Under the pieces are notes generated by a model. It made no database searches. It saw nothing but the letters and a program-made list of their open reading frames with translations, and was not told the DNA's origin. This document shows positions 5,862 to 12,165 of a stretch of 64,000 nt of DNA, piece after piece. The translations under genes were made by a program, and so were the position numbers. Numbering within the stretch: the first letter of the stretch is position 1; every line of letters begins with the position of its first letter. The DNA lies in the NCBI RefSeq assembly GCF_000023985.1, contig NC_013156.1, positions 980,363-1,044,362 on the forward strand, read 5' to 3'. The stretch is from Methanocaldococcus fervens AG86 (GTDB lineage: Archaea; AGJL01; Methanococci; Methanococcales; Methanocaldococcaceae).

Positions 5862-6548
5862 TCATGTATTGAAACATTTCATATTAGGTGAGCCAGGGCC
5901 GTGATATGTCCATATAATCTCATTTCTAAAATTCTCCTTCCCAAAAATCTCATCCATCATTAATTTAACATAATGCACCATTCTATAATCTAAATGCACA
6001 TAGATAGAGCCATCATCTGCTAAAAGTTCCTTCATTAAAACCAATCTCTCATACATATATCTTAAATAAGAAGCAATCCTTTCCTCTGGTGTACTTCCTC
6101 CCCACATGTCTCTATATGCTAATTCTTCTATTATTGATGGTTTATACTCAATATCACTTTTTTTAACAAACTCCTTCCAACTCTCTGGAACCGGCACTTT
6201 AAAGGAAAAATCTGCTCCAGTAGCAAATGGTGGGTCTATATAAATCAGCTTAATCTTCCCTCTTAAACTTAAAATCTTCCCATCTATCTCTATTCCATTT
6301 AGCAAAGAAGACATTGCCAATTTATTATCTCCCCAAATTAGCAAATTTTTCCAATCTTTTGGATAGTTTTTAGGCCATGCATCTTCTGGAAATAATGTTG
6401 TTTGAGTTCTTTTATTTATCCCTAAAAGTTCAATTTTTTGAAATGGTAAGGAAATTTTTTTAACTTCTCTAACTTTTCCATAATATTCATCAACACTTCT
6501 TTTGTAAATGGTTTTTCTCTCTTCCCATCCCATAAAAGTTCTACCCAT
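5862..6548 (-). CDS. Type III-like DNA adenine methyltransferase, N-terminal part (mod fragment)
   Basis: 228 aa carrying the catalytic IYIDPPF motif (about residues 104-110) and the [11 protein letters not shown] segment; it ends by frameshift at PNMKCFNT. Deleting one A near 5873 joins it to the next fragment as [17 protein letters not shown]. The start is also suspect. A strong ribosome binding site (GGGGAGGT) serves an ATG at 6556 in a different frame reading [12 protein letters not shown], and a two-base change in a GAGAGA repeat near 6516-6522 would fuse that to [11 protein letters not shown]. The original gene therefore probably spanned 4565-6556 and now holds two frame breaks. Confidence 0.7.
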
Positions 6549-6739
6549 CCAGTCATATTACCTCCCCTTTATATAAATAAACTTTTAAGTTAAGTAAATC
6601 ATAATTTAGTTTAAATTATGTTATTTACTACTTAGAGAATTAATAAAATAATTAAGAATAAAATAATTTTTAACTATTGTATAATGAAACATTTACAATA
6701 AAATCTTTACTATTTAGTCCTCGCTAATCTAATATTTAT

Positions 6740-7339
6740 TTATTGTAACTTCTTCTTTTCTTTTAAAACCTCATAAAACCTATTAAGTGTCTTCCTCAAA
6801 ACTCTTAATCCCTCTTCATCCTCTTCAACTCCTTTCTTCCCCATATCTTTAGACCAAAACGTAGCTCCTAAATTAGCACCAAAAGAGCCTCCTCCAACAG
6901 GAATCATTTCATTTATTATAAAAAAGTCATGTATCGTTCTTAAAGCAATCTCTTGCCCTCCATTTCTATCCCCACCAACGGCAATTCCCATACCTACTTT
7001 TCCCTTTAAAATTTTTGGATCTTTTGCCAATATTGCTCTACATCTATCCATTAACGTCTTTAACTGCCCAGAAACGTTTCCTTGATAGACTGGAGTTCCT
7101 ATTATAACCCCATCCGCCCATATAAGGTTTTCATAAACTTCTTCCATATCATCTTTATTTATACAACCCTCTTTTTTCCTTACACAGTAATCACAATGAA
7201 GGCAGAAATTGATAGTTTTTCTATTAACTGAAAAGTATCTAACATCAGCTCCTTTCTCCTTTAGATAATTCAAGGCATAATTTACTGCAAAATGAGTCCC
7301 TTGCAATCTTGGACTTCCGCTAATACCAAAAATCTTCAT
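6740..7339 (-). CDS. Iron-sulfur flavoprotein (Isf family)
   Basis: 199 aa NADPH-dependent FMN reductase-like flavodoxin fold with an added compact cysteine motif. The FMN phosphate loop is GISGSPRLQGTHF at the N-terminus. The cluster motif CLHCDYCVRKKEGC (C-x2-C-x2-C-x5-C) is at about residues 47-60. This spacing is the signature of Isf, which moves electrons between ferredoxin and acceptors and has been shown in related proteins to reduce O2 or H2O2. It is the first gene of the minus-strand redox cluster in coordinate order, and lies downstream of fprA with a 17-nt gap, so the two are probably cotranscribed. Confidence 0.87.
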   Translation of the reverse strand: MKIFGISGSPRLQGTHFAVNYALNYLKEKGADVRYFSVNRKTINFCLHCDYCVRKKEGCINKDDMEEVYENLIWADGVIIGTPVYQGNVSGQLKTLMDRCRAILAKDPKILKGKVGMGIAVGGDRNGGQEIALRTIHDFFIINEMIPVGGGSFGANLGATFWSKDMGKKGVEEDEEGLRVLRKTLNRFYEVLKEKKKLQ

Positions 7340-7356
7340 AATTCCACCAAATAAAT

Positions 7357-8523
7357 TTAAATATCTGCCAATCTTTTACCAAACTCATAACATTTTTTCA
7401 AATCATCTTCTTTTGGAGCAAATTTTACCTTTAAGCATTCGTCATCAACTATCTTAAATCCTAAGCTTTCAAATACTCTTTTAATTTTTTCAGTAGCCAT
7501 TTCCATCCAACCATAAGAACCAAAAGCAACCCCTATTTTGTTTGTTGGCTTTAATCCCTCCATATATGTTAGGAATTTACCAACTTCAGGGTAGGGATTT
7601 CCATTTAATGTTGGCGAACCAATTAAAACATACTTTGCATCTAAAATTTCCTTCATTATCGTGTTCATTGGAGTTTCAGATATTCTATACAATTTTACTT
7701 CAACACCGCCATCTATTAAACCCCCTGCAATTGCATGAGCAATCTTTTTAGTTGAATTATACATTGTGTCATAGGCAATAACTGCCTTATTTTCAATTTT
7801 GTCGTTTGCCCAATCTAAATATTTTTTTATAATTTCATCTATCTTTTCTTTCCATATAATTCCATGAGAAGGACAGATAAGCTCTATATCTAAATCTTTT
7901 AGGGAATTTATTGTATTAGGGATTAGCATCTTGTAAGGCATTAGTATGTTTGCAAAATACTCTTTGGCATGTTCAAAAACTTCATCTCCAATTTCATAAT
8001 CAAATTTTTCAGAGCTTGCTATGTGCTGCCCAAATGCATCGTTTGAGAATAAAACTTTATCCTCCTTACAGTAAGTTACCATGTTGTCAGGCCAATGTAG
8101 CATAGGGGTTCTTATAAACTTTAATGTCCTATCTCCAATACTTATCTCGTCTCCAGTATCTACAATAAGGAAATCCCAACCTTTAGTGTCATAATTTAAA
8201 GATAAATGCTCCTTTCCTTTTTCATTTGTTATTATCGTGGCGTTGCTAATTTCAACAATCTTATCAACACAACCGCTGTGGTCTTTTTCCACGTGATTAA
8301 CAACAACATAATCAATATCTTTTGGATTTATTATTTGAGAGATTCCATTTATTAGTTCATCAAACATATAATCCTTTGCAGTATCAATAAGGACAGTTTC
8401 TTTATCTTTTATTAGATAAGAGTTGTAGGTTGAACCGTTTTGTGTTATATATTCATGGAAATTCCTAACTTCCCAGTCGATTACACCAACCCAAAAAATG
8501 TCCTTTTTTATCTCAACTGCCAT
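7357..8523 (-). CDS. fprA: F420H2 oxidase FprA (diiron flavodoxin-like protein)
   Basis: 388 aa A-type flavoprotein. The N-terminal metallo-beta-lactamase-like domain holds the diiron ligands in HVEKDHSG (H-x-E-x-D-H, residues about 78-85), HWPD and CPSHG; the C-terminal flavodoxin domain begins near residue 248 (AVIAYDTMYNSTKKIAHAIAGG). In methanogens this enzyme reduces O2 to water with reduced F420. A second copy lies at 16050. It is flanked by the iron-sulfur flavoprotein downstream and a DsrE-like gene and rubrerythrin upstream, all on the minus strand with short gaps, forming one oxygen-detoxification operon. Confidence 0.92.
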   Translation of the reverse strand: MAVEIKKDIFWVGVIDWEVRNFHEYITQNGSTYNSYLIKDKETVLIDTAKDYMFDELINGISQIINPKDIDYVVVNHVEKDHSGCVDKIVEISNATIITNEKGKEHLSLNYDTKGWDFLIVDTGDEISIGDRTLKFIRTPMLHWPDNMVTYCKEDKVLFSNDAFGQHIASSEKFDYEIGDEVFEHAKEYFANILMPYKMLIPNTINSLKDLDIELICPSHGIIWKEKIDEIIKKYLDWANDKIENKAVIAYDTMYNSTKKIAHAIAGGLIDGGVEVKLYRISETPMNTIMKEILDAKYVLIGSPTLNGNPYPEVGKFLTYMEGLKPTNKIGVAFGSYGWMEMATEKIKRVFESLGFKIVDDECLKVKFAPKEDDLKKCYEFGKRLADI

Positions 8524-8556
8524 AACATCACCTTAAAAATAAAATTTAAAAAAGAG

Positions 8557-8907
8557 TTAGAGTTCAATAATTCTATATCCTTCATCTAAATATTTCTTTA
8601 AGCTCACATGTCCAAATAAATCATTTTCTAATGTTAATTTCCCTTTAATTTCGTCTTTAACGTTAAACATGTCTGAGCATGCTTCACATACTACAAAATC
8701 ATCTTTTAATTTTTCAAAATGGTTTTTTAATGGATGATTCTCACTCAGCAAATCTCTTGCCCATAAAACTGCCTCCCCCTCTAATAGTATTTTTACTTCA
8801 TCCCCTTTTTCCTTCAACTCATTTGCAAACAATAAAGTGTGGAACATTACTGGCATATTTGGCTTATCCTTATGTGAGTATGATAAAATTAGAAATGCAA
8901 CTTTCAT
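8557..8907 (-). CDS. DsrE-family protein
   Basis: 116 aa alpha/beta protein of the DsrE/DsrF-like family (MKVAFLILSYSHKDKPNM start, FANELKEKGDEVKILLEGEA, then VVCEACSDMF). Two cysteines in CEAC sit where the family carries its active or sulfur-carrying Cys. The family moves sulfane sulfur or acts as small redox partners; the substrate here is unknown. It lies between rubrerythrin (8 nt upstream) and fprA (33 nt downstream), which suggests a role linked to redox defence or Fe-S repair. The frame is intact. Confidence 0.75.
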   Translation of the reverse strand: MKVAFLILSYSHKDKPNMPVMFHTLLFANELKEKGDEVKILLEGEAVLWARDLLSENHPLKNHFEKLKDDFVVCEACSDMFNVKDEIKGKLTLENDLFGHVSLKKYLDEGYRIIEL

Positions 8908-8915
8908 ATTCCCAC

Positions 8916-9500
8916 CTAATATTTTTCACATTTAACTTCGAAGTATTTTCTCGGATGACTGCAAGATGGACATTCTTCTGGCGGTTCCTCCCCTATATGA
9001 ACATACCCGCACTTTCTACAAACCCATTCTACAGGTTCATCTTTTTTAAATACTGTTCCCCTTCCTACTTCTTTCAATAATTTTCTAAACCTCTCTTCAT
9101 GATGTTTTTCAGCTACTGCAATAGCCATCAACCTATCTGCAATTTCTTTAAGTCCCTCCTTCTCAGCAATTTCAGCAAACTTTGGATACATCTCTGTATG
9201 TTCAAAATGCTCTCCTTCAATTGATGCCTTTAAGTTATCAGCAGTGCTTCCCAAAACAATTGGAACTTCAACATCACTAACTTTTATTTTGTCTTCAATG
9301 TTATACTTTTTCTTCAGTTCAGTTATTAGATAATAAAGCCATTTAGCATGTTCTCTTTCATTTTCAGCAGTTAATAAAAACACTTCAGCTATTTTTTCGT
9401 ACCCTTCTTGCTTAGCAATTTTTGCGTAGCATGTATATCTATTTCTTGCTAAACTCTCTCCGATATATGCCTTAGTTAAATTTATAATGGTTTCTTTCAT
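8916..9500 (-). CDS. rbr: Rubrerythrin
   Basis: 194 aa. The N-terminal ferritin-like diiron domain has E-x6-Y and two E-x2-H motifs (NEREHAKW at about residue 48 and EKHHEERF at about 131); the C-terminal rubredoxin domain reads CRKCGYVHIGEEPPEECPSC, giving the two C-x2-C knuckles of the Fe(SCys)4 site. Rubrerythrin reduces hydrogen peroxide using electrons from rubredoxin. It is the upstream member of the rbr-dsrE-fprA-isf run. A disrupted rubredoxin gene lies 27 nt further upstream. The length and all ligands are normal. Confidence 0.92.
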   Translation of the reverse strand: MKETIINLTKAYIGESLARNRYTCYAKIAKQEGYEKIAEVFLLTAENEREHAKWLYYLITELKKKYNIEDKIKVSDVEVPIVLGSTADNLKASIEGEHFEHTEMYPKFAEIAEKEGLKEIADRLMAIAVAEKHHEERFRKLLKEVGRGTVFKKDEPVEWVCRKCGYVHIGEEPPEECPSCSHPRKYFEVKCEKY

Positions 9501-9526
9501 AAAATTCCCCTTATTATTTAAGATTT

Positions 9527-9769
9527 TTATTCATCAAATACTAACCATTCATCTAATGGTTCAAAGGATTCTTTTCCTACTTTACCTCTACAAACTGGGC
9601 AAACTCAATCGTCTGGAAGTTCTTCAAATGGAGTTTTTGGAGGAATGTTTTGACTCGAGTCTCCTTTTAATGGATCATACACCCATCAACAAACTCTACA
9701 CTTATATTTTCTATATTTTGGTTTTTCACAGGTATCATCTAATTTGCATGCCATTTTAAGCTCTACCAT
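9527..9769 (-). pseudogene. Rubredoxin gene interrupted by two in-frame TGA codons
   Basis: An 80-codon frame starts at ATG 9769 and ends at TAA 9527. It translates as a rubredoxin: YKCRVC, stop, WVYDPLKGD, IPPKTPFEELPDD, stop, VCPVCRGKVGKESFEPLDEW. Both cysteine knuckles are present. The first TGA (9686-9688) stands where rubredoxins have the Gly of CxxCGW; the second (9605-9607) stands where they have the Trp of DDWVCPVC. Both are single-base changes from expected codons (GGA, TGG). There is no indel. It lies between peroxiredoxin and rubrerythrin, as expected for their electron donor. It is either a pseudogene or a sequence with base errors; selenocysteine at these sites is unlikely. Confidence 0.8.
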
Positions 9770-9809
9770 TACTATCACACTAAAAATTTAAACATAAAAT
9801 TAGAATAGT

Positions 9810-10484
9810 TTATTCTAACTTTTTGTAGCAGAGCCACCAATCTAAGCATTCGATTTCTCCTTTTTCACAAGCTTCTTTTCTCTTTTTAATCTCTTCTACT
9901 GATGATGCTGGAGGAACTATTACCTTATCTCCAATTATATCATTTTCTGGCCAGTTTGCAGGCATAGCCACTCCTTTCTCATCTGAAATCTGGAGGGCTT
10001 TAACTAATCTTACGATTTCGTCTAAGTTTCTACCAACCTCTTGTGGGTAGTAGATGATAGCTCTAATAATTCCCTTGTTATCTACAACAAAAACAGCTCT
10101 AACTGTATTGTTCCCCTTATATGGGCTTATCATTCCCAATTTTTCTGCCAACTCCCCTCTATCATCTGCTATAACTGGAAACTCAATTTCAACATTTAAT
10201 TTTTCTTTTATCCATTCAATCCATTTTAAGTGGCTGAAAACTTGGTCTATACTTAAACCAATTAATTCAGTATTTAGCTCTCTAAACTTATCGTATCTCT
10301 TTTGGAATCCTACAAACTCTGTTGTACAAACTGGAGTAAAGTCAGCAGGGTGGCTAAATAAAACAAACCATTTGCCCTTTTCTACGTAGTAATCTGGCAA
10401 TTTTATAGTTCCATGTGTAGTTTTAACTTCAACTTCAGGAAATTTTTCTCCTATAACTGGCATTTTTTCTTCACACATACTCAT
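9810..10484 (-). CDS. Peroxiredoxin (1-Cys Prx6 type, archaeal)
   Basis: 224 aa thioredoxin-fold peroxidase. The peroxidatic Cys lies in [13 protein letters not shown] at about residues 44-56, and further conserved parts are [15 protein letters not shown] and a C-terminal arm with two cysteines ([14 protein letters not shown]). Archaeal members of this size form decamers and reduce peroxides. The starts [16 protein letters not shown] and MPVIGEKFP are both possible. It sits between the broken rubredoxin and a small rubredoxin-like protein on the minus strand; the 47-nt gap upstream holds no obvious regulatory palindrome. Confidence 0.9.
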
Positions 10485-10531
10485 CCCCTATTTTTGTGAA
10501 TCTATTAAAAAAATTATTAAAAATAAAAAAT

Positions 10532-10717
10532 TTAGAATTTGCTCTCCTCATCTGGTCTTCTTGCAACTAATTTTGGATCATAACCTTGACATCCGCATTC
10601 TGGAGTGTAGCATGTCACATCATAAAATGTGCACGCTTCCCCACAATTTGGACATCTTTCAGGAGGCTTCTCTGCTTCAAAGACATATCCGCAGTTTGAA
10701 CATTTCCACCATGTCAT
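10532..10717 (-). CDS. Small rubredoxin-like zinc/iron ribbon protein
   Basis: 61 aa. It reads [20 protein letters not shown] followed by [14 protein letters not shown], which matches the C-terminal rubredoxin domain of rubrerythrins (C-x2-CGY...P-x2-CP-x-C). Two more cysteines follow in [12 protein letters not shown]. It probably binds one iron in a rubredoxin-like knuckle and passes electrons to a peroxidase. It is placed 47 nt upstream of peroxiredoxin and 8 nt downstream of the ferritin-like gene. The frame is intact. The specific partner is inferred from the neighbourhood only. Confidence 0.8.
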
Positions 10718-10725
10718 ATTATCAC

Positions 10726-11249
10726 CTATAATGAGTTAGATTTATTTTCTGTTGTTGGAACATACACTCTTTGTCCAAGCTCTTTATCAAGCATGAATAA
10801 TCCTCTCTTATCTTCCCCAATTAACTTTAATTTTTCTAAAATTTCTGAAAAAGACGCTTCTTCTTCAACTTGTTCATTTACAAACCATTGTAGGAAGTTT
10901 ACTATTGCATAATCCTTCTCAGAAATTGCTAAATCCATTATATTATTTATCGATTCAGTTATGAACTGCTCATGCCTATATCCATCTTCAAATACTTCAA
11001 TAATTGATTTCCACTCATTTTTTGGTTCTTCTATTTTGTACAATCTTACTCTTCCTCCCCTCCCTATAACGTAGTTGTATATCCTCATTGCATGGTCTAA
11101 TTCCTCCAGACTTTGAACTTTAAGCCATTGGGCGAATCCTTTTAATCCTATGATTCAGCATAGGCAGACATGGATAGGTAGAGATATGCAGAGTAAAACT
11201 CTTTATTTATTTGCTCATTTAATGCATCCAATATTTTTTCTTTAATCAT
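10726..11249 (-). pseudogene. Ferritin gene with a frameshift
   Basis: From ATG 11249 the frame reads [32 protein letters not shown] and stops at TAG near 11150. A shift by one base continues [22 protein letters not shown] and then RIYNYVIGRGGRV, to the stop at 10726. Together this is a normal ferritin of about 170 aa: the E-x-YSAYLYLS helix A, the E-x2-H iron ligands in EELDHA, and the RGGRV turn. The break is a lost A in TCAATAGG. Only the 120-aa 3' part (from 10726 to 11088) is open with an ATG, and it lacks helix A ligands, so it would not mineralise iron. Confidence 0.8.
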
Positions 11250-11267
11250 TAGTATTCACCAAACAAT

Positions 11268-11546
11268 CTAATCTTTCTTTTTAATTAAACATTTGTTTGC
11301 TAATTTCATTGCCAAATCTTCTGGATCTTTTATTGGGAAATCGTTGTCAGTTAGTAATTTAACCAATTCCCCTGCCTCTACTTCCCCACATGGTAAAGAT
11401 ATGCCGCAAGGCAATGCTTCTGCTAACTCAACTTTACTTTTTATAGGGAAAACATCTTTCTTGTCTTTGAAATATTCAACTAACCTTAATTTAAAATCTT
11501 GAATATCCCTTAATGCCTCATAAAGTGGATGATTTGTTGTTATCAT
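11268..11546 (-). CDS. Small conserved hypothetical protein
   Basis: 92 aa, mostly helical, intact. Seen in it: NHPLYEALRDIQDFKLRLVEYFKDKKDVFPIKSKVELAEALPCG, then ISLPCGEVEAGELVKLL, so two Cys-Gly pairs (LPCGISLPCGEVEAGE) stand close together. I do not recognise a characterised family. It lies between the ferritin gene and rubredoxin 2 on the minus strand, with 13 nt to rubredoxin 2, so it is probably cotranscribed with rubredoxin 2 from the palindrome-bearing promoter at about 11790. A role in iron or oxygen handling is inference from the neighbours. Confidence 0.7.
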   Translation of the reverse strand: MITTNHPLYEALRDIQDFKLRLVEYFKDKKDVFPIKSKVELAEALPCGISLPCGEVEAGELVKLLTDNDFPIKDPEDLAMKLANKCLIKKKD

Positions 11547-11559
11547 ATTTTCACCTTTT

Positions 11560-11718
11560 TTACTCTATTTTTCTAAATGCATTTTTTGCTAAGCCACATT
11601 GTGGGCATCTAAACGTATCTGGAAGTTCCTCAAACTTTGTTCCCGGTGGGATATTTTGGGAAGGCTCCCCCTTATCTTCATCATAAATCCATCCACACAT
11701 ACACTGATATTTCGCCAA
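11560..11718 (-). CDS. Rubredoxin (rubredoxin 2, rb2-like)
   Basis: 52 aa with a TTG start preceded by GGTGAT. It reads AKYQCMCGWIYDEDKGEP, then IPPGTKFEELPDTFRCPQCG, giving an iron centre with C-x-C and C-x2-C; the first knuckle is C-M-C, one residue shorter than usual C-x2-C. The position matches M. jannaschii rubredoxin 2, whose promoter is a known target of the Lrp-family activator Ptr2. A palindrome of the right kind lies 70 nt upstream at 11788-11798. This rubredoxin is intact, unlike the one at 9527-9769, and would be the surviving small electron donor here. Confidence 0.88.
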   Translation of the reverse strand: MAKYQCMCGWIYDEDKGEPSQNIPPGTKFEELPDTFRCPQCGLAKNAFRKIE

Positions 11719-11787
11719 CCTTATCACCAAACATACTTATTTGACATTATTTTTATCTCCATAATTTTGATATTTATCATTAACCAT

Positions 11788-11798
11788 ACGAAATTCGT
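11788..11798 (-). promoter_or_regulatory. Candidate Ptr2-type operator upstream of rubredoxin 2
   Basis: The perfect 11-bp palindrome ACGAAATTCGT lies 70 nt upstream of the rubredoxin 2 TTG start and just past the end of the superoxide reductase gene. It is flanked toward the gene by an AT-rich stretch that could hold the TATA box. In M. jannaschii the Ptr2 activator is known to act from sites upstream of the rb2 and fdxA promoters. The same core recurs at 15233 and 18825. The Ptr2 assignment is inferred from position and symmetry. Confidence 0.65.
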
Positions 11799-11813
11799 CA
11801 AAAATCATTAAAT

Positions 11814-12165
11814 TTATCCTAATTTAATCTCCTTTTCATATTTCCATATACCGTGTAGGTTGCATCTCATCAAGGCCCTTAAGGTGAATTTTTCATGACC
11901 TTTTGAAGGAGCTTTTACGACTAATTTAACCTCAGGCTTCATAAATTGGGTGAATTCAACTCTTGCTAAGTAGATATCCCCATGAACAACTCAATCCACT
12001 GGATAAAGTGCCCATCTTCCATAGGATGAGGAATTCCGGCTGATATTTTAATTTCAAAGTATTCATCTGCTTTAACAACATCAGGACATTCAATAAACGG
12101 AGTATGCTTTTTTTTTCAAAATCGTTTCCTTCTTTCATTTTGTTTATTCCACAAAAGTAGTTCAT
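11814..12165 (-). pseudogene. Superoxide reductase (neelaredoxin type) with two frameshifts
   Basis: Three frames in order give MNYFCGINKMKEGNDFEKK, then HTPFIECPDVVKADEYFE through HPMEDGHFIQWIELFMG, then DIYLARVEFTQFMKPEVK to MRCNLHGIWKYEKEIKLG. All the ferrous site ligands are there: His in KHTPF, two His in HPMEDGH, and Cys/His in CNLH. The first break is in a run of nine A at about 12108-12116 and the second in a run of four G near 11985; both are homopolymer length changes. The intact protein would be about 116 aa and reduce superoxide to peroxide with rubredoxin. As written, only a 69-aa nonsense product is made. Confidence 0.8.

Follow-up and report, generated by a model that had tools for sequence, protein, structure and literature searches.

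Do the two in-frame TGA codons of a rubredoxin gene in Methanocaldococcus fervens AG86 specify selenocysteine, or do they mark a gene that has recently been lost? The gene, rub1, lies in a window of 64,000 bases (NC_013156.1, positions 980,363 to 1,044,362), which is the whole stretch of DNA that was analyzed, and is part of a cluster of redox genes. The features that bear on the question are, in window coordinates:

7357..8523, minus strand: gene with ODP-family beta-lactamase and flavodoxin domains, intact; its product we take to be an FprA-like flavodiiron protein
8916..9500, minus strand: rubrerythrin with a rubredoxin-like C-terminal domain, next downstream of rub1, intact
9530..9769, minus strand: rub1, probable rubredoxin pseudogene; 80 codons, ATG start, TAA stop, six Cys codons kept
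9605..9607, minus strand: in-frame TGA at rub1 codon 55
9686..9688, minus strand: in-frame TGA at rub1 codon 28
9810..10484, minus strand: peroxiredoxin (AhpC/TSA), next upstream of rub1, intact
10532..10717, minus strand: small rubredoxin-like zinc-ribbon protein, intact
11560..11730, minus strand: second rubredoxin, intact, 80.9 bits, 1.8 kb from rub1

Twenty-nine bases (9501-9529) separate rub1 from the rubrerythrin gene. Read from 9769 to 9530, the rub1 frame contains no indels or frameshifts and no stops besides the two TGA codons, the first of which directly follows CRVC (codon 28) and the second of which falls within DD-TGA-VCP (codon 55), so that the frame is not open for a rubredoxin protein. 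With the stops masked, it matches the Pfam Rubredoxin family (PF00301) at 72.5 bits over positions 1-47 of 47, and the codons for the four cysteine ligands of rubredoxin (24, 27, 57 and 60) are all present. A first-pass annotation of this DNA had placed the two TGA codons, at 9605-9688, on a conserved glycine and a conserved tryptophan; the coordinates are exact, and each TGA is indeed a single base away from a codon for the expected residue. The same annotation described the frame as otherwise perfect, which holds for indels and further stops but not for residues 6, 12, 38 and 76, at each of which the relatives are uniform and rub1 differs. An antisense open reading frame at 9487-9759 was set aside as a shadow frame: the same frame carries 0 to 2 stops in nine sequences, and it has no other support. 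A plasmid search with the rub1 region returned no matches.

Orthologues of rub1 were found in 9 of the 13 other genomes of the genus (10 of 14 counting the host); the related genomes include Methanocaldococcus sp. SG1. None of the nine orthologues contains a stop, and in all nine column 28 is glycine and column 55 is tryptophan. Orthologues such as L004 and L010, to which rub1 is 88% and 85% identical, share its position in the cluster, its 80 codons and its six cysteines, but have no stops and keep Gly28, Trp55, Gly12, Pro38, Ile6 and Val76. Across the whole order, 46 rubredoxin matches were obtained from 36 genomes, and the only one with stops is rub1. Likewise, when the whole window was screened for stops, relatives' frames covered ~26 kb, and rub1 was the sole gene with internal stops against four relatives; the other stops, as read from the table, belong mostly to opposite-strand frames of real genes, RNA genes and gene ends.

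Relaxation of constraint was assessed through private changes, meaning columns that are uniform in every species but one; the deeply branching G002 and G012 were excluded, gapped columns were skipped and neighboring genes were trimmed to their BLAST segments. The host lineage carries six private protein-changing differences in rub1 (the two stops and four missense changes, at residues 6, 12, 38 and 76) and no silent ones. This 6:0 ratio contrasts with 28:55 across nine neighboring host genes (Fisher p 0.002) and with 1:6 for rub1 in eight relatives (Fisher p 0.005). Leaving out the stops, the host ratio of 4:0 still differs from neighbors (p 0.016) and relatives (p 0.015), while a generous count that admits three silent changes in rub1 weakens the contrast to p 0.07. 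Judged from these substitutions, the excess of protein-changing differences is the pattern that lapsed selection would be expected to leave. A disrupted frame and relaxed constraint, the marks of a pseudogene, thus coincide in a single lineage, the second less clearly on the count that gives p 0.07.

We consider rub1 to be, with a probability of about 0.92, an ordinary young nonsense pseudogene that was recently inactivated, a reading that rests on sequence comparison. Nonsense mutation was among the explanations offered in the first pass, and it is borne out by stops confined to the host lineage, by the 6:0 private changes and by the lack of a SECIS element described below. In our model, base substitutions in M. 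fervens turned the glycine and tryptophan codons of rub1 into UGA, and with selection on the gene lapsed, missense changes would have piled up as well. Translation would end after 27 residues, by which point only the first CxxC pair has been produced. After the loss of rub1 the cluster keeps the second rubredoxin, the rubrerythrin and the small rubredoxin-like protein; its function is presumably covered by the remaining redox proteins there, the intact second rubredoxin among them, as in relatives that have no such gene. What we infer from these comparisons is that function has been lost, in what order the mutations arose and that other proteins serve as backup. That both stops are TGA needs no special cause: based on the codons of four relatives, ~37-39% of the single-base nonsense changes in rub1 give TGA, and the probability that two nonsense changes would both do so is 0.13 to 0.15. 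In its lineage-specific stops, its relaxed constraint and its absence elsewhere in the genus, rub1 resembles ordinary nonsense pseudogenes of bacteria and archaea and differs from them in nothing essential.

Several observations run against the pseudogene reading. The frame is free of frameshifts and indels, none of the six Cys codons is lost, the match to the family still scores 72 bits, the contrast in private changes falls to p 0.07 on the generous silent count, and synonymous divergence is low. Relative to G001, synonymous divergence is 0.32 for rub1 against 0.69-0.89 for its neighbors. Decay does not explain this value, which may reflect recent recombination or transfer, or simply the shortness of the gene. 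In the rub1 tree, G008 is placed beside G001 with a support of 46, and it is placed differently in the trees of neighboring genes; because the support is only 46, no transfer is claimed for rub1.

Of the rival readings, a fault in the sequencing or assembly of the public genome has a small chance of being correct. The species is represented by one genome, and each TGA is one base off a codon for the expected residue. However, the 80 codons hold six private protein-changing differences, all of them substitutions, the ratios of the neighboring genes are normal, and the assembly (1,507,251 bases in 2 contigs, the larger of 1,485,061) is 99.87% complete. The error that the first-pass annotation allowed for is unlikely because six errors would need to fall in 240 bases.

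The remaining rivals depend on how the host reads UGA. That M. fervens decodes UGA as selenocysteine in some genes, as the first pass supposed, is upheld by a tRNA-Sec (71.6 bits) and by selD and fruA genes with one in-frame TGA apiece; within the genus, 13 of 13 selD and 14 of 14 fruA matches above the family cut-off contain a TGA. The host therefore has the machinery of an archaeal selenoprotein producer. The methanogen SECIS element is described as a stem whose GAA/A internal loop sits between G-C clamps, located in the 3' UTR or, for fdhA1, in the 5' UTR (PMC11881835), and its distance from the UGA is usually 80-1,300 nt (PMC2933860). The selD and fruA genes share with rub1 an in-frame TGA in the same genome, but they have a downstream SECIS with the GAA/A internal loop and a TGA conserved in the genus, neither of which is true of rub1.

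A motif descriptor for this element, applied to the last part of each oriented selD or fruA control locus, detected 27 of 27. On the minus strand of 8401-10500 it had no match; elsewhere in the window, with both strands scanned, it matched at two places, one of them within the rRNA region. Twenty of the 27 control elements served to build a covariance model. In the host genome, with 150 of 285 first-look candidates scored, it identified five SECIS-like elements at 28.9-41.8 bits (E<=1.4e-4); matches to the host selD and fruA are circular because the model was built from these elements, while three matches at 233-238 kb are not, one of them lying just beyond a short hydrogenase frame that contains a TGA. 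L175 (host C1:616921-616954) gave a further SECIS-like match, a weak one at 18 bits (E 0.24). Over the whole window the model gave one match, at 11.6 bits (E 0.82), on the plus strand in the rRNA region; run without filters on 6500-12000 it gave 6.1 and 4.6 bits, the better of the two being partial (E 3). The check for a SECIS near rub1 proposed in the first-pass annotation thus yielded none by either method, and no such element was found in the untranslated regions flanking the gene. Nor do the UGA codons stand at cysteine positions or recur as UGA in relatives; the 45 other rubredoxin matches in the order are free of stops.

Low-level read-through of UGA without a SECIS, for example as tryptophan, could yield traces of full-length rubredoxin, and a Methanococcus maripaludis reporter lacking a SECIS is reported to show above-background activity in two UGA variants (PMC9622424). 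This reading is very improbable for rub1: both stops would have to be passed, glycine at codon 28 is not expected to be restored, and the remaining coding changes point to lost selection. Also highly improbable is recoding in M. fervens only, independent of a SECIS or signalled from a distance, which would give a rubredoxin with altered residues beside the metal-binding cysteines. The first-pass annotation leaned away from selenocysteine because these positions are never cysteine in rubredoxins; in M. maripaludis, a 3' UTR SECIS is reported to have driven selenocysteine insertion at a serine site besides cysteine sites (PMC9622424), so a non-cysteine site is no mechanistic bar. A rubredoxin with selenocysteine at both UGA codons, even in a host with a tRNA-Sec, TGA-containing selD and fruA genes and five SECIS-like elements, can be all but dismissed, as the best score at rub1 is 6.1 bits against 28.9-41.8 for the host elements, the sites are glycine and tryptophan in all relatives and the TGA pair occurs in one species only. 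A literature search, at the level of search results, gave no rubredoxin selenoprotein and nothing relevant on M. fervens with rubredoxin, and the main text of PMC11227280, in the portion available, makes no mention of rubredoxin. The wider caution is that, even where a genome decodes selenocysteine, a redox gene with an in-frame TGA does not by that fact alone encode a selenoprotein.

Returning to rub1 as a probable pseudogene, the distribution of the gene across the genus bears on its loss. It was absent from G006, G010, G011 and G012, the case of G011 being uncertain because that genome is 89% complete. A contig scan with the peroxiredoxin as query gave 80 loci, of which only L026 and L028 are drawn on here. 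Directly after the peroxiredoxin, G006 and G010 have rubrerythrin, the matched segments lying 48 and 113 bases apart, and inspection of these gap sequences revealed no rubredoxin. The G012 cluster is without both rub1 and rubrerythrin. Since rub1 appears to be decaying in M. fervens and is missing from the corresponding position in three further species, it is evidently dispensable in the genus. In G002 (L012), a rubredoxin gene is present with no rubrerythrin match passing the filter in the surrounding 3.2 kb locus; the make-up of the cluster varies across the genus.
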